64,000 nucleotides of DNA, from positions 93,000-156,999 of the forward strand of contig CAMHOY010000004.1 of the NCBI GenBank assembly GCA_946186915.1, written 5' to 3'. The notes beneath the pieces are model-generated. The model searched no databases. It saw nothing but the letters and a program-made list of their open reading frames with translations, and was not told where the DNA came from. This document shows, in pieces, positions 4,560-64,000 of the stretch. The first letter of the stretch is position 1, and every line of letters starts with the position of its first letter. Position numbers and translations under genes: made by a program. The stretch comes from an uncultured Bacteroidales bacterium. Lineage in GTDB: Bacteria; Bacteroidota; Bacteroidia; Bacteroidales; Paludibacteraceae.

Positions 4560-5051
4560 ATGAGAAAAACATTTTTATTTTTGTGTGTCTTCGCGATGAT
4601 GGCGTGCAATAAGCCGTCGCGGGTGGAGCAGTACAAAGCCGACAAACATAAATCGGACAGTATTCATTTAGTGGAGCAGACAACGAGTCTGGCGTACTAT
4701 CAGGCGCAACTGGAGCAGTTGATGCCGGTGGCGGACAGTCTGTTGCCGTTCTTCGCGTATGAGAAGAACGAGAAATACCAGGACCATGGGTACTACGTGG
4801 TGAAAGGGGGAAGTTTGCGCATCTTGGTACGGGATGACGGACGGGATTTGTTAGTGTATAAAGAGGGGAAGCGACAAGCCTATCCAGACCATTCCCTAAA
4901 GGGAAGGGACAGAGAAATGGTAGAGCGGGCGGAGCATCTGCAGGTTACTATTCGCGACATCAAGGAATGCGAGAAACGTATCGCCCGTACCTCCCTTGAG
5001 AAGCAAAAATACGAGAAAAGGCTGCAAAATCAATTGAAAATTGAAAATTGA
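4560..5051 (+). CDS. putative lipoprotein
   Basis: MRKTFLFLCVFAMMAC|NK lipobox; ATG at 4560 follows the promoter (ORF-track start at 4521 lies inside it). Confidence 0.75.
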   Translation: MRKTFLFLCVFAMMACNKPSRVEQYKADKHKSDSIHLVEQTTSLAYYQAQLEQLMPVADSLLPFFAYEKNEKYQDHGYYVVKGGSLRILVRDDGRDLLVYKEGKRQAYPDHSLKGRDREMVERAEHLQVTIRDIKECEKRIARTSLEKQKYEKRLQNQLKIEN

Positions 5052-5061
5052 AAATTCAAAA
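5034..5061. repeat. heptad array (TTGAAAA)3 TTCAAAA
   Basis: Exact 7-bp period; contains the lipoprotein stop codon. Confidence 0.9.
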
Positions 5062-5062
5062 T

Positions 5063-5094
5063 TTGCATATATCAAAAAATTGTTGTATCTTTGC
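5063..5094 (+). promoter_or_regulatory. Bacteroidetes-type promoter
   Basis: TTGCATATATCAAAAAATTGTTGTATCTTTGC. Confidence 0.7.
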
Positions 5095-5586: not shown

Positions 5587-6288
5587 ATGAAAAGACCCAG
5601 AATACACAAAGAAGGCCGCGGATTGATCTGCGGAACAGTTCTTCTTCTGTTTATCATCAATGTGCCCATCTATCTGTATGTGCAGCCGCATTGGATAGTC
5701 GGCGTCACGCTCATTCTGACAGCCATGCTGTTGGTGTTTGTCACCTATTTCTTCCGCAACCCTGTGCGTGTGCTGGAGATAGATGACCCTAATTTTATTA
5801 TCGCGCCCGCGGACGGCCGCGTGGTGGTAGTGGAGCCGACGGAAGAGAATGAGTTCTTCCACGAGCCGAAACTGCAGGTGTCGATCTTCATGTCGCCTTT
5901 CAACGTGCATGCCAACTGGTATCCGATAGAGGGAACGGTGCTGGTAAGCGAGCATCAGAAAGGTCATCATAAAGGAGCGTGGTTACCGAAATCGAGCACG
6001 GAGAACGAGCGCTCACTCGTGGTCATCGAGACGCCAAACAAAGTGCAGATAGCCGTTCGTCAGATAGCCGGAGCGATGGCACGCCGTATCGTGACGTATG
6101 CCAAGCCCGGTCATCAGGCACACCGTAACACCCATCTCGGTTTTATCAAGTTAGGTTCCCGCGTGGACATGTACCTGCCGCTGAATACGGAGATGTTCGT
6201 GACGGTAGGCGAGCATGTACGCGGCAATGAGACGGTCATCGGACGCCTTCAGGATGACCCGGAGATCAATACGAATGAGGAAGTGTAA
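5587..6288 (+). CDS. psd: phosphatidylserine decarboxylase proenzyme
   Basis: FMSPFNVHANWYP and LGSRVDMYLP; contains the GS processing site. Confidence 0.93.
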   Translation: MKRPRIHKEGRGLICGTVLLLFIINVPIYLYVQPHWIVGVTLILTAMLLVFVTYFFRNPVRVLEIDDPNFIIAPADGRVVVVEPTEENEFFHEPKLQVSIFMSPFNVHANWYPIEGTVLVSEHQKGHHKGAWLPKSSTENERSLVVIETPNKVQIAVRQIAGAMARRIVTYAKPGHQAHRNTHLGFIKLGSRVDMYLPLNTEMFVTVGEHVRGNETVIGRLQDDPEINTNEEV

Positions 6289-6289
6289 G

Positions 6290-6328
6290 GTTGAAAGTTT
6301 AAAGTTTAAAGTTGAAAGAAAGTTTAAC
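6290..6328. repeat. heptad array GTTGAAA GTTTAAA GTTTAAA GTTGAAA (+GAAA) GTTTAAC
   Basis: Exact 7-bp period in the psd-deoC junction. Confidence 0.9.
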
Positions 6329-7246: not shown

Positions 7247-9592
7247 ATGAAAGATAAGAATAGAATTCTTTCGAAAAGATTTTTCTCGGACAATGTAGCG
7301 GAGCTCGTAGTGGAAGCTCCGCTCATTGCGCGTAGCCGTAGAGCCGGCCATTTTGTGATCATCCGTGTGGATGCACAGTCAGAACGTGTTCCGTTGACCA
7401 TTGCCGGCGCGGATGTTGAAAAAGGTACTATCACTCTGGTGGTACAGCGTATCGGTGTTTCCACGCATAAACTGCTGGCTATGGAGCCGGGTGAATGTCT
7501 GCATGACATCGTTGGCCCATTAGGACGGGCAACACGCATCGAGAAGTACGGAACCGTTGTATGCGCTTGCGGCGGAGTGGGTGCTGCCCCGATGTTGCCT
7601 ATCGCTGAGGCTTTAAAGAAAGCCGGCAACAAAGTTATCACTGTGCTGGCGGCGCGTAACAAAGACCTGATCATCCTCAAGGACGAGTTGGCGCAATGGT
7701 CCGACGAGGTGATTGTCATGACGGACGACGGCTCAATGGGTAAGCAAGGCGTTGTGACCGTCGGCGTTGAAGAAGTGATCAACCGCGAGCAAGTGGATAA
7801 ATGTATCGCTATCGGTCCGGCCATCATGATGAAGTTCGTGGCGTTGACCACCGCCAAATACAACATCCCGACAGAGGCCTCGCTGAACACGATCATGGTC
7901 GATGGTACGGGAATGTGCGGTGCATGCCGTGTGACGGTAGGCGGCAAGACCAAGTTCGTCTGCGTGGATGGTCCGGAGTTCGATGCGCATGCCGTCGATT
8001 GGGACGAGATGCTGAGCCGTATGAGAGCCTTCAAGACCGAAGAGGCCGCTGCGATGGAGGAATATAAGACAGGTAAGCCTACCCCGTCCCTCCCTAAAGG
8101 GAAGGAGAAGGCTGTCAGCAATCAGCCCTCAGCAATCTGCTCTGTTCCTCCCTTCGAAGGCAAACCAAAAGACCGTGTAGCCATACCGCGTGTTCAAATG
8201 CCCGAACTGCGTCCTGAAGTGCGCGTGAAGAGTTTGCACGAAGAAGTTAACCAGGGTTTGACTTTCGAGCAGGCTATCACCGAGTCCCATCGTTGCCTCA
8301 ACTGCCCCAAACCTACTTGTGTGCAGGGCTGTCCGGTGAATATCAATATTCCGGGTTTCATCAAGACGCTTGAGAAAGGTGACATCCTCGGTGCGGCAGC
8401 AATTATCAAAGAGAGTTCGTCTCTGCCGGCAGTGTGCGGTCGTGTATGCCCGCAAGAGAAACAATGCGAGAGTCAGTGTATCCATCTCAAGATGGGTCAT
8501 CCGGCAGTAGCCATCGGTTACCTCGAGCGTTTCTGCGCAGACTATGCGAATGCGCAAGCGCAGTTAAACGTGCCGGAGGCACAGATAAACGCTCCGAAGG
8601 AGCAGTTAAACGCGGCTAAGCCGCAGTGTAAGATCGCGGTCGTCGGAAGTGGTCCTGCGGGCCTGACCTTTTCCGGTGACGCTGCAAAGTACGGCTATGA
8701 AGTACATGTGTTCGAGGCGCTGCATGAGATAGGCGGTGTACTCAAATACGGCATCCCCGAGTTCCGTCTGCCGAACAGCATCGTGGACACGGAGATAGAC
8801 GGCTTGCGTGCACTCGGTGTGCAGTTCCATGCCGACACGATCATCGGAAAGACCATCTCCGTCAAAGAACTCGAAGAGCAAGGCTTCAAGGGCATCTTCG
8901 TGGGTTCGGGAGCCGGACTGCCGCGCTTCATGAATATACCGGGCGAGAACCTGAATGGCGTGATGAGTTGCAACGAATACCTCACTCGCGTCAACCTCAT
9001 GGACGCTTCTAATCCTGCAACCGACACTCCGCTGCTGTACGGCAAGAACGTAGCCGTCATCGGTGGCGGTAACACCGCGATGGATGCAGTTCGTACTGCC
9101 AAACGTCTGGGGGCAGAGCACGCGATGATCATCTATCGTCGTTCGGAAGAAGAGATGCCGGCGCGTATCGAAGAGGTACATCATGCCAAACAAGAAGGCA
9201 TTGAGTTCATGACGCTGCATAACCCGATTGAGTACCATGCGGATGAGACCGGTCGTGTGAAGGAAGCGGTGCTGCAAGTGATGGAACTCGGTGAACCCGA
9301 TGAGAGCGGACGCCGCAGTCCTGTTCCTGTAGAAGGAAAGACCGTCACCCTTCCGGTGGACCTCGTGATAGTAGCTGTAGGTGTAAGTCCGAATCCGTTG
9401 ATCCCGTCCAGTGTCGAAGGACTGGAGATCAGCAAGAAAGGTACTATCGTGGTGAACGATGGCATGCAGTCGGCTATTCCAACGATCTTCGCCGGTGGCG
9501 ATATCGTTCGCGGAGGAGCCACTGTCATTCTTGCGATGAGTGACGGCCGCAAGGCTGCGGCTGCTATGCATGAGTACTTGGAGAAAGTTTAG
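7247..9592 (+). CDS. fused FAD/NAD-binding reductase subunit (NfnA/PyrK-like) and GltD-like NADPH glutamate synthase subunit (NfnB-like)
   Basis: N-terminal half with GTGMCGACRV Fe-S motif; C-terminal half with CLNCPKPTCVQGCPVNINIPGFI and VVGSGPAGLTF. Confidence 0.9.
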   Translation: MKDKNRILSKRFFSDNVAELVVEAPLIARSRRAGHFVIIRVDAQSERVPLTIAGADVEKGTITLVVQRIGVSTHKLLAMEPGECLHDIVGPLGRATRIEKYGTVVCACGGVGAAPMLPIAEALKKAGNKVITVLAARNKDLIILKDELAQWSDEVIVMTDDGSMGKQGVVTVGVEEVINREQVDKCIAIGPAIMMKFVALTTAKYNIPTEASLNTIMVDGTGMCGACRVTVGGKTKFVCVDGPEFDAHAVDWDEMLSRMRAFKTEEAAAMEEYKTGKPTPSLPKGKEKAVSNQPSAICSVPPFEGKPKDRVAIPRVQMPELRPEVRVKSLHEEVNQGLTFEQAITESHRCLNCPKPTCVQGCPVNINIPGFIKTLEKGDILGAAAIIKESSSLPAVCGRVCPQEKQCESQCIHLKMGHPAVAIGYLERFCADYANAQAQLNVPEAQINAPKEQLNAAKPQCKIAVVGSGPAGLTFSGDAAKYGYEVHVFEALHEIGGVLKYGIPEFRLPNSIVDTEIDGLRALGVQFHADTIIGKTISVKELEEQGFKGIFVGSGAGLPRFMNIPGENLNGVMSCNEYLTRVNLMDASNPATDTPLLYGKNVAVIGGGNTAMDAVRTAKRLGAEHAMIIYRRSEEEMPARIEEVHHAKQEGIEFMTLHNPIEYHADETGRVKEAVLQVMELGEPDESGRRSPVPVEGKTVTLPVDLVIVAVGVSPNPLIPSSVEGLEISKKGTIVVNDGMQSAIPTIFAGGDIVRGGATVILAMSDGRKAAAAMHEYLEKV
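8081..8111. repeat. small palindromic C/G-rich element inside the fusion linker
   Basis: ACCCCGTCCCTCCCTAAAGGGAAGGAGAAGG; shares TCCCTAAAGGGAAGG with 4893-4907. Confidence 0.6.
8115..8142. repeat. heptad array TCAGCAA TCAGCCC TCAGCAA TCTGCTC within CDS
   Basis: Exact 7-bp period. Confidence 0.85.
8561..8632. repeat. 21-bp tandem array of three hairpins within CDS
   Basis: CAGTTAAACGTGCCGGAGG / CAGATAAACGCTCCGAAGG / CAGTTAAACGCGGCTAAGC / CAGTGTAAG; CAG anchors at 8561, 8582, 8603 and 8624. Confidence 0.95.
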
Positions 9593-9614
9593 AGTTTAGA
9601 GTTTAGTGTTTAGA
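9587..9614. repeat. heptad array (GTTTAGA)2 GTTTAGT GTTTAGA
   Basis: Exact 7-bp period; first unit carries the TAG stop of the fusion gene. Confidence 0.9.
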
Positions 9615-9651
9615 GAAGTCTTCTAATTGATAGTTGACAATTAGTTGAAAA

Positions 9652-23112: not shown

Positions 23113-23829
23113 TTAGGCTCTCACTATTCCCCTGGTGGAATTCCGTACAAACAGTACGATAGTATCCCTTTCCTTGGAGGCCGGCATGGTCGCTTCGATA
23201 TAGTCGAGCGCCTGGGTGATGTTCATACCATTTTGGTAAAGAAGGCGGTACACCTCCTGTATTATATGTATCTGTTCGGGTGTGAAGCCGCGGCGGTTGA
23301 GTCCTACAGAATTGATGCCGCAGAACGCTATCGGGTCGCGAGCGATGATGGCATACGGGGGTATGTCTTTGTTGATTTTCGATCCGCCTTGTATCATGAC
23401 GTGTGAAGCGATATGTGTGAACTGGTGCACCAGCGTGCCGCCGCCTATGATAGCGAAATCATCTACTTCTACCTCACCGGCCAACTGGGTGGCATTGGAC
23501 ATGATGATGTTATCATGCAGAATGCAATCGTGCGCTACGTGGCAGTAAGCCATAATAAGGTCGTTGCTACCGATGACGGTTTTGCCTTTGGAGGCGGTGC
23601 CGCGGTGAACGGTTACGAACTCACGGAGCACACAGTTGTCGCCGATAACGGTCCATGTCTCTTCTCCGCGGAACTTCAAGTCCTGCGGTACACAACCTAT
23701 GACGGCATGCGGGAACACATGGCAGTTATCGCCAAGAATCACGTTATCATCAATATACGCAAAGGCATCAATCGTTACATTTTTTCCGATTTGCGCTTTT
23801 GGGCTCACATATGCTAAAGGACTGATCAT
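23113..23829 (-). CDS. lpxA: acyl-ACP--UDP-N-acetylglucosamine O-acyltransferase
   Basis: Hexapeptide repeats, CHVAHDCILHDNIIMSNATQLAGEVEV, AFCGINSVGLNRRGF. Confidence 0.94.
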   Translation of the reverse strand: MISPLAYVSPKAQIGKNVTIDAFAYIDDNVILGDNCHVFPHAVIGCVPQDLKFRGEETWTVIGDNCVLREFVTVHRGTASKGKTVIGSNDLIMAYCHVAHDCILHDNIIMSNATQLAGEVEVDDFAIIGGGTLVHQFTHIASHVMIQGGSKINKDIPPYAIIARDPIAFCGINSVGLNRRGFTPEQIHIIQEVYRLLYQNGMNITQALDYIEATMPASKERDTIVLFVRNSTRGIVRA

Positions 23830-23833
23830 GCGG

Positions 23834-23868
23834 AATTAAAAATTAAAAATTAAGAATTAAGAATTTTA
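23834..23868. repeat. heptad array (AATTAAA)2 (AATTAAG)2 AATTTTA at the lpxC/lpxA junction
   Basis: Exact 7-bp period; includes the lpxC stop codon. Confidence 0.9.
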
Positions 23869-24768
23869 TTCACTCAATATCTGGTTACGGAGGCGACGCA
23901 CACATTGCGTATTGAATGTGTGTCCGGGTTTGTATGCGACAACGCGTCCCTGCAGTCGGAGTCCGAGCAAGGAGAGGTCACCAATGACGTCTAATAACTT
24001 ATGCCGTGCAGGTTCGTTGAGGTAGTTCAGCGGCGACAAGTAGCCGAGTTTTTTTGCATCCATGTGGGGTTGTCCCATCTTGTCGCAGAAATAATCCATA
24101 CCTTCCTGCGACATCTCTGTTTCGTAGATGACGAGCGCATTCTTGAGGTCGCCTCCTTTGATGAGTCCGACGCGGAGTAGTGGTTCTATCTCGCGCACGA
24201 AACAGAATGTACGTGCAGCGGCTACCTCTTTTGGGTAATCGGCGAGATTGTTGAGTGTTGCGTGTTGTTCGCGCAGTAAGTTCGATTGAAAGGCAATCGT
24301 CACATCGATCTCATAGTGGTCGCAAGGTTCGATACGCATGGAGTGTCCATGTTCGGAGATGTACTCAATGGGTTCTCGCACCACATAAACCTGTTGTTCC
24401 GCTTCCTGTTCCTCGAGCCCCACGCGTTCAATCTCGCGCACGAAGAACCGTGCACTACCATCCAAGATTGGCATTTCCGGTGCATCTACGTCAATGATGC
24501 AGTTATCGACTCCCATCGCATACAATGCACTCAAGGCATGCTCGACGGTACTAATCTTCCATTTGCCTCGCTCGAGTACGGTGCCCCGTTCCGTTCCGGA
24601 GACGTAGTCAGCCAATGCTTGGTGGCAGGGTTGTCCGGGCAGGTCTATACGCCGCAGGCAGACGCCGGTATTCGCCGGCGCTGGATTGAAGGTCGCCGTC
24701 ACATGCAGACCTGTGTGCAAGCCTACGGAACTGAGGGTAAAAGGTTCTTTTATCGTATGCTGTTTCAT
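23866..24768 (-). CDS. lpxC: UDP-3-O-acyl-N-acetylglucosamine deacetylase, not fused to FabZ
   Basis: SSVGLHTGLHVTATFNPAP, STVEHALSALYAMGVDNCIIDV, ARHKLLDVIGDLSLLG; ends ...VRRLRNQILSE. Confidence 0.93.
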   Translation of the reverse strand: MKQHTIKEPFTLSSVGLHTGLHVTATFNPAPANTGVCLRRIDLPGQPCHQALADYVSGTERGTVLERGKWKISTVEHALSALYAMGVDNCIIDVDAPEMPILDGSARFFVREIERVGLEEQEAEQQVYVVREPIEYISEHGHSMRIEPCDHYEIDVTIAFQSNLLREQHATLNNLADYPKEVAAARTFCFVREIEPLLRVGLIKGGDLKNALVIYETEMSQEGMDYFCDKMGQPHMDAKKLGYLSPLNYLNEPARHKLLDVIGDLSLLGLRLQGRVVAYKPGHTFNTQCVRRLRNQILSE

Positions 24769-25805
24769 TTCTTCTCCAATTCGTTAAGACGTTTAAGGAT
24801 GTCCGGCAGTTGTTTGAATCCAACCACGGAGCGTCGCCAGTTGCCGGCCTCGATAGCCGGATAGCCCTGGTACATGCCGGACTTGCGCACACTGTTGGCG
24901 ATACCCGACTGTGCTCCGAAGATACAGTTGTCGGTTATCTCGATATGTCCGGCTACACCCACCTGACCCGTGAGGATACAATGTTTGCCGATCTTCGTGC
25001 TTCCGGCGATACCTACTTGTGCGCAAAGGAACGTGGATTCTCCCACTTCTACATTATGCGCTATCTGCACGAGGTTGTCGATTTTCACGTTGCGGCGGAT
25101 AATCGTGGAGCCCATCATAGCCCGGTCGATGGTGGTGTTGGCACCTATTTCGACATCGTCTTCGATGATGACATTTCCTATCTGCGGAATCTTCTGGTTG
25201 ACCCCCTGTGCATCGGGTTCAAAGCCAAATCCGTCCGAGCCGATTACTACGCCGGCATGCAGGACGCAGTCGGCACCAATGACGCAGCGGTCGTAGATAC
25301 GAACGCCGGCGTAGAGGATGGTGTGGTCGCCAATGACCACATTATCGCCGATATAGGTGTTCGGGTATATCTGTACTCCTTTGCCCAGGCGCACGTTCTT
25401 GCCGATAACCGCAAAGGCACCGATGTACGCATCTTTCGGAATGGTCACTCCTTCGCTGATGAAGCACGGCTGCTCGATGCCGCGTTTGGCGGGATGCATG
25501 GCCTTCGACACTATCTGCAACAACTGCGCCATCGCTCCGCGGGCATTGTCTACCAGTATGACGGCTCCGCCGGCTTTTCCTTCTCCTTCGGGGAAGGTGA
25601 TTTTTCCTTCTATGACGCTGCGTGTGATGAGGATGACGCCTGCTTTCGAAGTGGTGATGAACGGCAGGTATTTGGCATCGGTGATGAAAGACAAATGCTG
25701 TGCTTGGGCCGTTTCTATCGGCGCGACATCACTTACCATGGCATTGGCGTTGCCATAGAGGGTTCCACCTAAAAGGGCTGCTATTTGTTGTGCACTAAAT
25801 TCCAT
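24765..25805 (-). CDS. lpxD: UDP-3-O-(3-hydroxyacyl)glucosamine N-acyltransferase
   Basis: Hexapeptide repeats, GSDGFGFEPD, ANTTIDRAMMGSTII; ATGA overlap with lpxC. Confidence 0.95.
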   Translation of the reverse strand: MEFSAQQIAALLGGTLYGNANAMVSDVAPIETAQAQHLSFITDAKYLPFITTSKAGVILITRSVIEGKITFPEGEGKAGGAVILVDNARGAMAQLLQIVSKAMHPAKRGIEQPCFISEGVTIPKDAYIGAFAVIGKNVRLGKGVQIYPNTYIGDNVVIGDHTILYAGVRIYDRCVIGADCVLHAGVVIGSDGFGFEPDAQGVNQKIPQIGNVIIEDDVEIGANTTIDRAMMGSTIIRRNVKIDNLVQIAHNVEVGESTFLCAQVGIAGSTKIGKHCILTGQVGVAGHIEITDNCIFGAQSGIANSVRKSGMYQGYPAIEAGNWRRSVVGFKQLPDILKRLNELEKK

Positions 25806-27025
25806 TATCGCATTTTGAATAAATATCGTTTGGTGGGTTTGCGGGTGAGAGCGGCGAGGTCGAGGATCTCACTTGCCTCTGCGATGTCGCGTACGGTGCC
25901 GTCGGAATAGAGGATGTCAATCGTGTCGGCTTTTTCCGAATAGGTGTTGCTGGTAGAGATATGTTCGCTCCAGCAGTAGGAGGCTTCGTTCTCGGATATA
26001 CCTAACTGCGCAGCATATTGTTTGTTCAGTTCCGCTTTTTGCGTATCTGTCAACGGGGCGGATAGTAATTCTCCTCGGAAGAGGCGTCGGTTGATAAAAC
26101 TCTCGCTCAAAGCACTCAATACTTTGTCCTCTCCGGAGATCCAGGCTTTGATTGCGGACAAGACATCGTTATCGTCGAGCAATGCATATTTCTCCAACGC
26201 CTCACTGGTGGGGCTAAACATATCGAACGTCACCGGCTGGTATAGGAAATACCGCAAGGCCGGCGAACAAAAGAGTTCTTTACCGCCCCTCGCCAACTCT
26301 TTGGCACGGCTGAGAATTTTTATCAAGTGCTGCTCTGCAGCTACAGATGTCTTATGCAGATAGACCTGCCAGTACATGAGTCGGCGTGCCACCAGGAATT
26401 TCTCCACGGAGTAGATTCCTTTGACCTGCACGACCAATCGGTCGTTGCGTACATCGAGCATTTTGAGTAGTCGTTCACTCGCTACGCGTCCTTCCTGCAC
26501 GCCTGTGAAGAACGAGTCGCGACAGAGATAATCCATGCGATCCACGTCCAGCTGACTGGAGATCAGTTGGTGCAGGAAATGCTTCGGGTACTCGTTTTTG
26601 AAGATTGCGATTGCGGTATCCAGTTGCCCGTTCAGGTCCATATTGATCCGCTCCATCATGAGGAGGGAGATATCCTCATGCGTGACACCCTCTACGAGCG
26701 TGTGTTCCAAGACGTGTGAGAATGGTCCGTGTCCGATATCGTGCAACAGGATGGCTATCATTGCAGCGGTCTCTTCGTGCTCTGTGATCTTGACATCCTT
26801 GAGCCGCAGCGAAGCGATGGCCTCATGCATCAAGTGCATTGCGCCTAACGAGTGTCCGAAACGGCTGTGCATGGCACCCGGGTACACGAGGTATGATAAT
26901 CCCAGTTGTCGAATACGGTTCAACCGCTGTACGTAGGGATGTTGCAGCACATCGTAAATCAGTTCATTGGGTATGGACAAGAACCCGAAAACAGGGTCGT
27001 TGATAATCTTTCTTTTATTCGGCAT
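25805..27025 (-). CDS. HD-domain phosphohydrolase
   Basis: HSRFGHSLGAMHLMHEAI, ILLHDIGHGPFSHVLEHT, SSQLDVDRMDYLCRDSF. Confidence 0.93.
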   Translation of the reverse strand: MPNKRKIINDPVFGFLSIPNELIYDVLQHPYVQRLNRIRQLGLSYLVYPGAMHSRFGHSLGAMHLMHEAIASLRLKDVKITEHEETAAMIAILLHDIGHGPFSHVLEHTLVEGVTHEDISLLMMERINMDLNGQLDTAIAIFKNEYPKHFLHQLISSQLDVDRMDYLCRDSFFTGVQEGRVASERLLKMLDVRNDRLVVQVKGIYSVEKFLVARRLMYWQVYLHKTSVAAEQHLIKILSRAKELARGGKELFCSPALRYFLYQPVTFDMFSPTSEALEKYALLDDNDVLSAIKAWISGEDKVLSALSESFINRRLFRGELLSAPLTDTQKAELNKQYAAQLGISENEASYCWSEHISTSNTYSEKADTIDILYSDGTVRDIAEASEILDLAALTRKPTKRYLFKMR

Positions 27026-27638
27026 CTTCTTTTCTTTTTCTAACGATGGCATATAGTCCGGCCATCACGGCAAGTACCAGTGGTGTACCCACCGGCGAAT
27101 GTTCAACTAATTGATCTTTCTCCTGCAAGTCGGTCGTCGTTGGCGGTCCTGGTGCCCGACGAGGGCCACTGGCGAGAGTGGCTATCTCCGGCGCACGCTG
27201 TGCTTCCGGTGCTGCCACTTGTCGATTCGCAGCAAAAGTGGCAAAGGTTGTCACAGTATTTGTGGTATAACTGATTCCACGTTGAGCGGACCCACCCGAA
27301 GTGGTGGCTATTCCGTGTCCTGCTCCGCCACCGACGGTCTGCACGTGTGCGCTACTCGTGGTGTACAGCCCGCGTGAAGGTTGCATGGCGGCTGTCGGTG
27401 CAGTAGTACGCGGTGTGATGGGAATAGAGTAGGGATGAACCGTGTTATGCAGCAACGAGTATGAACTCATGCGCATTGGTTGCACAGGCATGGAAACCGG
27501 CGAGGGCTTGGATACCACTACACCCGGGTTGACATATACTTCGGGTTTGCTGAAGACGATGTATATGATTCCCATCAGCGCTGTGCCGCATATCAAAACA
27601 AGCAGCGCGATCAGTATTTGGATGCGGAAGGCTTTCAT
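27015..27638 (-). CDS. small protein with N-terminal TM segment and C-terminal TM plus basic tail
   Basis: MKAFRIQILIALLVLICGTALMGIIYIVF...PVGTPLVLAVMAGLYAIVRKRKEDAE; ATGA coupling with the upstream gene. Confidence 0.65.
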   Translation of the reverse strand: MKAFRIQILIALLVLICGTALMGIIYIVFSKPEVYVNPGVVVSKPSPVSMPVQPMRMSSYSLLHNTVHPYSIPITPRTTAPTAAMQPSRGLYTTSSAHVQTVGGGAGHGIATTSGGSAQRGISYTTNTVTTFATFAANRQVAAPEAQRAPEIATLASGPRRAPGPPTTTDLQEKDQLVEHSPVGTPLVLAVMAGLYAIVRKRKEDAE

Positions 27639-35235: not shown

Positions 35236-36376
35236 GTCCTTCTCCGAGGGCTTCCGGCAGCGGTATTTTCTCTATTTCTTTTTTCAGGAATTGCTCAATG
35301 CGTAGCCAGTAACGCGCATCGTCCGGCGAGACGAGTGTGATGGCTTCGCCGCTGTTCTCTGCGCGTGCCGTACGACCGATACGATGCACGTAGTCTTCGG
35401 CATCATGCGGCACGTCGTAGTTGATTACCAGCGGCACATCCGTCACGTCAATACCACGCGACACGACATCCGTCGCCACCAACACATCCACCTTTCCGTT
35501 TCTGAAATCGAGCATCACTTGGTCTCGTTCGTTCTGCTCCAGATCGCTGTGCATTGCCCTGGCGTCAATCTTCAGCGTGCGCAGCGCCCGTGCCAAGTCC
35601 TTCACCCGTTGTTTCTTGCCGGCAAAGATGATCACTTTCTTGAGTCCTTTGCCTTGCAGCGCCAGTTGTATAAATCCGGGTTTCTGTGCTTCGAAGAGCC
35701 GTGCACACATCTGATGAATAGTCTCCGGCGGACGTGAGACGGCAATCTGTACCTCGACGGGATCATGCATGATGGCTTTTGCCATCTGACGAATCTTCGG
35801 CGGCATGGTAGCAGAGAACATGATGGTTTGTCTGTCCGGCGGTAACCGCTTGACGATGGTCATGATGTCCTCGTAAAATCCCATGTCGAGCATTCGATCC
35901 GCTTCGTCGAGGATGAAGTATTTCACGCCGGAGAAATCGACGTTGTAGATGTTCATCTGACTTAGCAACCGTCCCGGTGTGGCGATGACGATGTCTGCAC
36001 CTTTCTGCAAGCCGCTTACTTGGTTTCCCCACGAGCCGTTGGTGTCTTTGCCGCCGTAGATAGCGACGGACGAGAAGGGTACGTAAAACCCAAACCCTTC
36101 CATCTGCTGGTCAATCTGTTGCGCCAGTTCGCGTGTTGGCGCCATGATGATGGCGTTCAGTTTGTCCGGGTCGTGGTCATCGTACGCCAGATTGGTCAGC
36201 AGCGGTAGTATGTACGCGGCTGTCTTACCGGTGCCTGTCTGGGCGCATGATATCACATCGCGCCGGTCCAGAATCACCGGTATAGTCTCTGCCTGAACGG
36301 GCGTGCATTCATCAAAATGCATGTCCCATAAGGCATCCAACACCTCGTCCGATAATGCTAATTCGTCAAAATACAT
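35111..36376 (-). CDS. DEAD-box RNA helicase (RhlE-like)
   Basis: AQTGTGKTAAYILPLL, ILDEADRMLDMGF, SATMPP, HRIGRTARA. Confidence 0.95.
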   Translation of the reverse strand: MYFDELALSDEVLDALWDMHFDECTPVQAETIPVILDRRDVISCAQTGTGKTAAYILPLLTNLAYDDHDPDKLNAIIMAPTRELAQQIDQQMEGFGFYVPFSSVAIYGGKDTNGSWGNQVSGLQKGADIVIATPGRLLSQMNIYNVDFSGVKYFILDEADRMLDMGFYEDIMTIVKRLPPDRQTIMFSATMPPKIRQMAKAIMHDPVEVQIAVSRPPETIHQMCARLFEAQKPGFIQLALQGKGLKKVIIFAGKKQRVKDLARALRTLKIDARAMHSDLEQNERDQVMLDFRNGKVDVLVATDVVSRGIDVTDVPLVINYDVPHDAEDYVHRIGRTARAENSGEAITLVSPDDARYWLRIEQFLKKEIEKIPLPEALGEGPKDDVYAIRSGKGCSAGSRHFSRNRAAHPRKSRGANRGAHR

Positions 36377-36394
36377 TTACCATTTATCATTTAT
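36374..36394. repeat. heptad array CATTTAC CATTTAT CATTTAT (reverse: ATAAATG ATAAATG GTAAATG)
   Basis: 7-bp period; carries the TAA stop of the epimerase gene and the ATG of the helicase. Confidence 0.85.
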
Positions 36395-45403: not shown

Positions 45404-46826
45404 CATCTTTGCTGAGATATGCAAAGTACCGAGACCCTCTAAGCATGAGGAACAGATTAGTAAATGGTTGCAGGATTTCGCAGCAACCCATCATATTGAG
45501 TGCGTGGCGGACGAGGCCATGAATGTCATCATGCGCGTTCCTGCCACACCGGGATACGAAGACCATGAAGGCGTCATCCTTCAAGCGCACATGGACATGG
45601 TATGCGAGAAGAACGGTGATGTGACCCATGATTTCATGACCGATTCGATTGAGACCTATATTGACGGCGAATGGCTTAAAGCCAAAGGCACTACCCTCGG
45701 AGGAGATGACGGAATAGGTATCTCTATGGCGCTGGCTGCTATCACCGATCCCGAACTTCAACACCCGGCTATCGAATGCCTTTTCACCGTCGATGAAGAG
45801 ACAGGACTCACCGGCGCCATGAAATTGAAAGACGGAATGCTTCGTTCCAAACGACTCATCAACCTCGACTCCGAAGATGACGGCCAGATATTCATCGGTT
45901 GTGCCGGTGGCATCGATACCCTCGCCAAGATGCACTATGAACCGCTTGACAAATCGCAAATTTCAAATCTCAAATCACAAATCGCCATTAAACTGAAGGT
46001 TTATGGCTTATTGGGCGGTCACTCCGGCGATGATATTAACAAAGGTCGCGCCAACGCCAACCAGATCCTTGTCTGGTTCCTCGCGCGTATATGGCCGCAG
46101 GCGGAAATACAACTCGCCTCCATCAACGGCGGTAATCTCCGCAATGCCATTGCACGCGAAGCGGAAGCCGTCATCGCTGTCCCAATGGCATACAAAGAGC
46201 AGATTCGTATTGAGTGGAACCATTTCGTCGCGCAGATGGAAGGTGTCTTCGGAGAGGTCGAAAAAGACATGCGCCTGGATCTTGAGACATGCGACATGCC
46301 GGACTCGTTCATTCCGGCGGAAAAAGCCTATCGCCTCATCATGGCACTCTGCGAATGTCCGCATGGCATGATCGCTATGAGTCAAGACATGCCCGGACTC
46401 GTCGAGACATCCACCAACCTCGCCTCCATCAAAATGCGCGACGGTTATATAGAAGTCAACACCTCCCAGCGTTCTTCAAAAGAAGCCTCGAAGCATCATC
46501 TCAAATGGGCGGTGGAGCAAGCTCTCTCTCTGGCGTGCGATGAAGTTACTCACGGCGATGGTTATCCTGGATGGGCACCGAATCCCAACTCACCGCTGCT
46601 CACGGTAGTGAAGAAAGCATATATAGACCTCTTCAAAACGGAACCCAAAGTGTTGGCGATTCATGCCGGACTGGAGTGCGGATTATTCCTTGAGAAATAC
46701 CCGTACCTCGACATGGTATCAATCGGCCCGCAGATGTATGGCGTTCACTCCCCGCAGGAACGCCTCTCCATCCCATCTACTGAACGCTGTTACCGCTGGC
46801 TATGCCAAACACTCAGTTCGTTATAA
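45384..46826 (+). CDS. pepD: aminoacyl-histidine dipeptidase
   Basis: VILQAHMDMVCEKN, GDDGIGISMALA, LINLDSEDDGQIFIGCAGG, GLLGGHSGDDINKGRANAN. Confidence 0.95.
   Translation: MTQKVFDIFAEICKVPRPSKHEEQISKWLQDFAATHHIECVADEAMNVIMRVPATPGYEDHEGVILQAHMDMVCEKNGDVTHDFMTDSIETYIDGEWLKAKGTTLGGDDGIGISMALAAITDPELQHPAIECLFTVDEETGLTGAMKLKDGMLRSKRLINLDSEDDGQIFIGCAGGIDTLAKMHYEPLDKSQISNLKSQIAIKLKVYGLLGGHSGDDINKGRANANQILVWFLARIWPQAEIQLASINGGNLRNAIAREAEAVIAVPMAYKEQIRIEWNHFVAQMEGVFGEVEKDMRLDLETCDMPDSFIPAEKAYRLIMALCECPHGMIAMSQDMPGLVETSTNLASIKMRDGYIEVNTSQRSSKEASKHHLKWAVEQALSLACDEVTHGDGYPGWAPNPNSPLLTVVKKAYIDLFKTEPKVLAIHAGLECGLFLEKYPYLDMVSIGPQMYGVHSPQERLSIPSTERCYRWLCQTLSSL
45950..45984. repeat. heptad array CAAATCG CAAATTT CAAATCT CAAATCA CAAATCG inside pepD
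   Basis: Exact 7-bp period, five units. Confidence 0.92.
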
Positions 46827-49070: not shown

Positions 49071-50138
49071 TTACTTCAGCTCTGCGAGGTACTTGATCGT
49101 ACGTACCATTTGGCTGGTGTAGCTGTTCTCGTTGTCGTACCAGCTAACTACCTGTACCTGATAGGTATCCTCGTCGATCTTCGCTACCATGGTCTGGGTA
49201 GCATCGAAGAGCGAACCGAACTTCATACCGATTACATCGCTGGAAACGATCTCATCCTCGGTATAACCGAAACTCTCAGTCTGAGCAGCCTTCATTGCTG
49301 CGTTGATGCCCTCTTTGGTGATGTCTTTACCTTTAACAACAGCAACGAGAATAGTGGTCGAACCCGTAGGAGTTGGAACGCGCTGTGCGCTACCGATCAA
49401 CTTGCCGTTCAGCTCCGGAATAACGAGACCGATAGCTTTTGCAGCACCGGTGCTGTTCGGAACGATGTTCTGAGCACCTGCACGGCTACGACGGAGGTCA
49501 CCCTTACGTTGCGGACCGTCGAGAATCATCTGGTCGCCGGTGTAAGCGTGGATAGTGCTCATAATACCGCTCTGAATCGGAGCGTATTTGTGAAGAGCTG
49601 CTGCCATCGGAGCGAGGCAGTTGGTCGTACAAGAAGCTGCGGAGATAATCTTATCAGCCGGAGTCAGAGTCTTGTGGTTCACGTTGTATACGATGGTCGG
49701 AAGGTCGTTTCCTGCAGGAGCAGAGATAACTACTTTCTTTGCACCAGCCTGGATATGAGCCTCTGCTTTAGCTTTGCTGGTGTAGAAACCGGTGCACTCG
49801 AGAACTACGTCGATGCCCAGCTCGCCCCAAGGCAGCTCAGCTGCGTTCGGCTTAGCATAGATAGTGATCTCCTTGCCGTCAACAGTGATCGAACCCGGAG
49901 TTACAACGGTCTTGCCGTCCTCTGCGAGAACTGCGTCCTTGTATGCTACAGTGTGCTTGCCCTCACCGAACTTGCCTGCGAAACCACCCTGAGCGGTGTC
50001 GTATTTCAGAAGGTGTGCCAACATTTTCGGGCTGGTCAGGTCGTTGATTGCAACTACCTCATAACCCTCAGCTTCGAACATCTGACGGAATGCCAGACGA
50101 CCAATACGGCCAAAGCCGTTAATTGCTACTTTTGTCAT
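49071..50138 (-). CDS. gap: glyceraldehyde-3-phosphate dehydrogenase
   Basis: [49 protein letters not shown]. Confidence 0.97.
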
Positions 50139-50272
50139 AATTGTTAATTGATTTATTGAATTGTTTATTGTGTTTATTTGTCTTTCAACCTTTGCGGGTG
50201 CAAAGGTAATATAAATTTTTTATATACGAAAATAATTCGTTCAAAAATCTTATTTTTGCAATCTGTCTTTGT

Positions 50273-63908: not shown

Positions 63909-64000
63909 CTCTTTCACTCTTTCACTCTTTCATTCTTTCATTCTTTCACTCTTTCATTCTTTCATTCTTTCACTCTTTCATTCTTTCACTCTTTCATTCT
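63909..64000. repeat. octamer array (YTCTTTCA)n, at least 11 units, runs off window edge
   Basis: Alternating CTCTTTCA and TTCTTTCA units with exact 8-bp period. Confidence 0.93.

Follow-up and report, generated by a model that had tools for sequence, protein, structure and literature searches.

In Gram-negative bacteria, FAS II is deemed hard to bypass, because the cycle supplies the beta-hydroxy fatty acids that lipid A requires; the substrate of both LpxA and LpxD is (R)-3-hydroxyacyl-ACP, the product of FabG. The beta-hydroxy fatty acid has been described as essential (PMC11271967). Two forms of LpxC are relevant here: the bifunctional LpxC/FabZ protein of Bacteroidetes/Chlorobi (NCBIfam model NF009667), a fusion also carried by Chlorobium (PMC516016), and stand-alone LpxC (TIGR00325), represented by the Pseudomonas aeruginosa structures. 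In this study, we report the characterisation of an unfused lpxC gene from an uncultured Bacteroidales bacterium and follow the fate of its FabZ half. The gene lies in a window of 64,000 nucleotides, the whole stretch of DNA that was analysed (C4:93000-156999), in a genome (G000) of 2.13 Mb in 37 contigs that is 98.7% complete. By record label, the neighbours of this genome are Paludibacteraceae, most of them recovered from rumen and gut samples of ruminants (cattle, sheep, goat, yak and deer). The closest named record is the uncultured Bacteroidales MAG RUG14329, which has an identical LpxC.

The genes at the locus are arranged in the order HD-lpxD-lpxC-lpxA, as in Bacteroidales (Table 1), and lpxA, lpxC and lpxD are all intact. 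The best NCBIfam match of LpxC is the bifunctional model NF009667, which is matched at positions 3-302 of 464 only and with 364 bits, short of its cutoff of 465, while the cutoff of the lpxC model TIGR00325 is passed (226 versus 187). This bears out the original prediction that LpxC lacks the FabZ half, with the gene order kept and lpxA beginning 36 bp further on. The alignment with P. aeruginosa LpxC reaches query residue 293, the catalytic residues are conserved (E and H in TVEH, H and D in HKLLDVIGD, and H in GHTFN), and the protein terminates as ...FNTQCVRRLRNQILSE before the stop codon. LpxC is thus a whole deacetylase, predicted to be catalytically intact, without the FabZ half. With the bifunctional proteins it shares an LpxC half aligned over its full length and the lpxD-lpxC-lpxA order, but it stops at the end of the LpxC domain. 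With stand-alone LpxC it shares the length, domain end and catalytic residues, but it would be derived from the fusion and not ancestrally separate.

Table 1. Position of the features at the lpxC locus within the window
Feature	Position	Strand	Description
HD-domain hydrolase gene	25805-27052	-	Upstream of lpxD
lpxD	24765-25805	-	346 aa; 4-bp overlap with lpxC start
lpxC	23866-24768	-	300 aa; unfused; deacetylase domain complete, with its end at the natural domain boundary
lpxC-lpxA spacer	23830-23865	-	36 bp, where fused relatives have the FabZ half; no FabZ remnant
AATTAAA/AATTAAG heptad array	23834-23865		TRF: period 7, 4.6 copies, 96% matches
lpxA	23113-23829	-	238 aa; start (23829) 36 bp past lpxC

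In the neighbouring LpxA, a stretch of exactly 18 residues is missing after VILGD, equal in length to a single coil of the left-handed beta-helix. Three other genomes share this deletion (G002, G004 and G018; clade bootstrap 99), and the coil is retained in sister congeners and most relatives. The deletion may alter the acyl-chain ruler or the trimer.

The spacer had been described as consisting entirely of the heptad array, which was thought to carry the new stop codon and to mark the breakpoint of the fusion. The array is real; it covers 32 of the 36 spacer bases, and the TAA stop codon of lpxC (23866-23868) directly precedes the array called by TRF and is not part of it. That the repeat caused the break in lpxC/fabZ, as its filling most of this junction might imply, is extremely improbable, because the same LpxC end is found with spacers of 0-2 bp in close relatives, including MAGs with 96-97% identical LpxC, a near-identical C-terminal end and a 1-bp spacer. 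Moreover, other relatives have unrelated AAATCGT-, AAATGGT- or AAATCTG-like arrays at the same site, and the fused outgroup G034 (locus L040) has ATTGTTA heptads past its stop. At locus L193, where LpxC is 100% identical, there is one heptad fewer than in G000. Over 41 distinct lpxC-lpxA spacers, for some of which the start calls are rough, lag-7 identity was 0.52 versus 0.32 after shuffling (z 16.5). As heptads are absent, different, or present after a fused stop in the relatives, 7-bp arrays seem to arise repeatedly at this junction, independent of the state of LpxC, and the array of G000 is best read as a late, lineage-specific insertion downstream of the stop. AT-rich 7-bp tandem arrays are also present elsewhere in the window, at 5032-5063, 6281-6318, 9586-9615, 36374-36394, 45950-45983 and 50138-50171. 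At 63909-64000, an 8/24-bp array of 11.5 copies, CTCTTTCA, runs off the end of the window, which is the contig end.

The history of the FabZ half was followed in a comparison set of 41 genomes, including congeners and 16 order-level relatives. Canonical matches to PF07977 (FabA/FabZ) were found in a single congener, G011, where the protein is fused (460 aa), and in 14 of the 16 order-level relatives, nearly all in frames of about 460-490 aa (cut to 416 in G035). Among these relatives, G032, from another family of the order, has an unfused LpxC and a stand-alone FabZ of 147 aa. G011 aside, the frames of the congeners with an LpxC match end at the LpxC domain; in this survey the best copy of G012 was cut by a contig end, and G005 and G021 were without an LpxC match. 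Every one of the 80 named loci that is readable to the gene end is unfused. When LpxC, LpxA and LpxD were used to build a tree, the unfused congeners grouped in a single clade with a bootstrap of 98, G011 was placed as its sister, and support for the genus was 100. The fusion is present in this basal congener and in the 11 outgroup genomes of the tree, which supports a fused ancestor, in agreement with the domain loss originally suggested, and the fused form expected among sister genomes is present within the genus itself. The simplest history is that the FabZ half was lost once, after G011 split off: the ancestral LpxC-FabZ would have been shortened by its deletion in the ancestor shared by most members of this rumen Paludibacteraceae genus, and LpxC would have persisted as a stand-alone enzyme.

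An assembly in 37 contigs and short of full completeness could, in principle, have produced an assembly or binning artefact, with either a deletion at 23830-23870 or fabZ left on a missing contig. About 100 loci, from mostly independent MAGs, share the unfused architecture, which excludes a deletion of this kind, and FabZ is also missing in the unfused congeners, several of which are 95-98% complete; an artefact is thus barely credible. Fission, the other origin first proposed, in which FabZ would have become a gene of its own at another site, has a parallel in the stand-alone FabZ of G032. A search for such a gene gave no PF07977 match in the G000 genome, and no stand-alone FabZ of canonical strength was found in the unfused congeners. 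The weak PF07977 matches of the congeners were rejected as housekeeping FabZ, being divergent hotdogs of about 120 aa which, in the examined cases, lie in ketosynthase-rich clusters and which are absent from G000. Fission is therefore very improbable, and FabZ has not been relocated within the genome.

Other dehydratase families were also searched in G000. MaoC (PF01575) gave no match in the genome, and the one match to the ApeI-type family (PF22818) was dismissed as spurious (E 0.09, in a 44-aa frame with four in-frame stops). The genome is accordingly without a match to PF07977 or PF01575 and without a credible match to PF22818 for the 3-hydroxyacyl-ACP dehydratase (FabA/FabZ) step of FAS II, and it is nearly certain that the FabZ half was lost without a recognisable replacement. 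The clusters of the congeners are ketosynthase-rich and aryl-polyene- or flexirubin-like (L043, L044, L045, L046, L047, L330 and L331). They contain the divergent hotdog and sometimes FabI, FAS-like parts which are missing from G000.

The enoyl-ACP reductase was looked for as FabI, with a query from G011, and as FabK (PF03060), and neither is present in the G000 genome. Among the 41 genomes, FabI was found in 13 of 15 with a canonical FabZ and in 5 of 26 without one (Fisher p 4e-5, kinship ignored); in the better genomes only, the corresponding figures are 10/12 and 2/12 (p 0.003, kinship again ignored). One of the two genomes with FabZ and without FabI is G032, in which FabK lies beside FabZ. 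FabI follows pheS in G011 and G013, and it adjoins ketosynthase or hotdog genes in G001, G002, G010 and G012. Four of the five FabI copies in genomes without canonical FabZ have such genes as neighbours, in clusters absent from G000. FabI would likewise have been lost in most lineages of the genus, including G000, and with FabZ and FabI both lost, the FAS II cycle could no longer dehydrate and saturate.

A housekeeping FabH was also missing from G000. Its sole KAS III falls below the fabH cutoff (217 versus 292) and lies in a surface-polysaccharide cluster; this FabH-like gene, at C12, was rejected as the housekeeping enzyme on account of the surrounding glycosyltransferase, FkbH-like and sugar-epimerase genes. 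In most congeners, KAS III is absent or within accessory clusters. No KAS III match was found in G011 either, so that its loss may date back further. FabF-type enzymes can substitute for FabH (PMC8204192). The losses look ordered, with KAS III gone or accessory in most congeners, FabZ lost after the split of G011, and the pheS-linked FabI still present in G013. Outside the genus, LpxC is unfused in G025 and G027, from two other families of the order, and both are without canonical FabZ or FabI, which is likely to reflect parallel FAS II decay. In G032, a fabZ-fabF-fabK-fabH run (L328:3649-7316) looks like a replacement of the ancestral FAS genes.

Four components of FAS II are kept in G000. 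FabF (597 bits), FabG (330 bits) and FabD (328 bits) all score above the curated NCBIfam cutoffs, and the ACP, identified by Pfam, adjoins FabF. This FabF is the one ketosynthase of the genome, which indicates that there is no second synthase system. Additionally, G000 encodes three AMP-binding acyl synthetase paralogues of about 550 aa (FadD/AasS-type), two of which form a tandem pair close to genes for a TetR-like protein and a patatin-like phospholipase; all three match acyl-CoA ligase models below the cutoff, and their specificity for ACP or CoA is not readable from sequence. The fabG gene is located in a block, acyl synthetase-coaX-OMP-TPR-lptC-fabG, which is also found in G004, G011 and G017, and which was not found around fabG in G014 or four outgroups. 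At loci L324:709-4438 and L169:4804-7640, this block links fatty-acid activation, LPS export and FabG. The acyl synthetases are already present in G011, which has FabZ, and so did not arise in response to FabZ loss; as the fabG block is present there too, the capacity for scavenging would have come first, in keeping with a later evolution of dependence.

Replacements of the FAS II dehydratase and reductase are known, and the intact FabD, FabF, FabG and ACP could belong to a cycle that is still complete, in which FabZ gave way to a dehydratase that is unrelated or went unrecognised, and FabI to a reductase such as FabV. The exchange of the fusion for the fabZ-fabF-fabK-fabH run in G032 is a precedent within the order. 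Such a reading is nevertheless unlikely, because G000 has no FabA/FabZ, credible ApeI, MaoC or FabK match, and two successive steps would need unseen replacements across many lineages. Elongation on CoA instead of ACP, by reversed beta-oxidation (thiolase, crotonase and TER), would account for the joint loss of FabZ and FabI, and acyl synthetases are present. Crotonase-type hydratases, however, yield the (S) isomer, which LpxA and LpxD do not use, and we regard this route as quite improbable.

Instead, the FAS II elongation cycle has probably decayed, with acyl chains scavenged and a half-cycle of FabD, FabF and FabG feeding lipid A, a proposal drawn from MAGs of uncultured bacteria. Acyl chains would be taken from the environment and activated, most likely by the FadD/AasS-type synthetases. 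FabF would then join malonyl-ACP to the scavenged acyl-ACP, adding one two-carbon unit to give 3-ketoacyl-ACP, which FabG would reduce to (R)-3-hydroxyacyl-ACP. With no dehydratase present, this product would pass to LpxA and LpxD, and one such round would suffice for lipid A. FabD, FabF and FabG may thus have been kept without a dehydratase or enoyl reductase because LpxA and LpxD need (R)-3-hydroxyacyl-ACP. A precedent for such a route is soluble AasS, through which fatty acids supplied from outside reach both phospholipid and lipid A; two acyl-ACP synthetases are known from Alistipes finegoldii (PMC11271967). Neisseria possesses an acyl-ACP synthetase, yet its FAS inhibition is not relieved by supplying fatty acids (PMC12208996); possession of a synthetase alone is thus not enough, and this counts against the half-cycle.

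On balance, we lean towards the view that an LPS-bearing, free-living gut bacterium has dropped iterative fatty-acid synthesis, and that a one-step conversion of scavenged acids by FabD, FabF and FabG supplies the 3-hydroxyacyl chains of its lipid A. If true, this runs against the usual view that lipid A binds Gram-negatives to a complete FAS II, and it predicts lipids to feed for growing the uncultured rumen bacteria of the genus. A natural lineage that keeps lipid A synthesis without FabZ and FabI would show how the link between lipid A and FAS II can be cut. We found no report of such a FabZ loss in Bacteroidales in the open-access literature. Because G025 and G027 pair an unfused LpxC with the absence of canonical FabZ and FabI, and G032 has the fabZ-fabF-fabK-fabH run in place of the fusion, our results suggest that an unfused LpxC can act as a genomic flag of FAS II remodelling in Bacteroidales.

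Among known systems, Alistipes finegoldii (AfAas1/AfAas2) resembles G000 in belonging to the Bacteroidales and in having several acyl synthetases, which in G000 may likewise pass scavenged acids on to lipids, but it elongates via its own FAS II, whereas G000 is without a recognised dehydratase or FabI/FabK enoyl reductase. The route of Vibrio harveyi AasS into E. coli lipid A is similar to the proposed one in that an exogenous acid becomes acyl-ACP and then an elongated 3-hydroxyacyl chain for lipid A; E. coli, however, has the full cycle, and in G000 these chains would come from the half-cycle alone. Scavengers without FAS II, such as fatty-acid auxotrophic lactobacilli and mycoplasmas, would share with G000 a reliance on external fatty acids after the loss of FAS. 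Those organisms are without lipid A, whereas the group of G000 keeps lpxA, lpxC and lpxD together with the enzymes for 3-hydroxyacyl-ACP.
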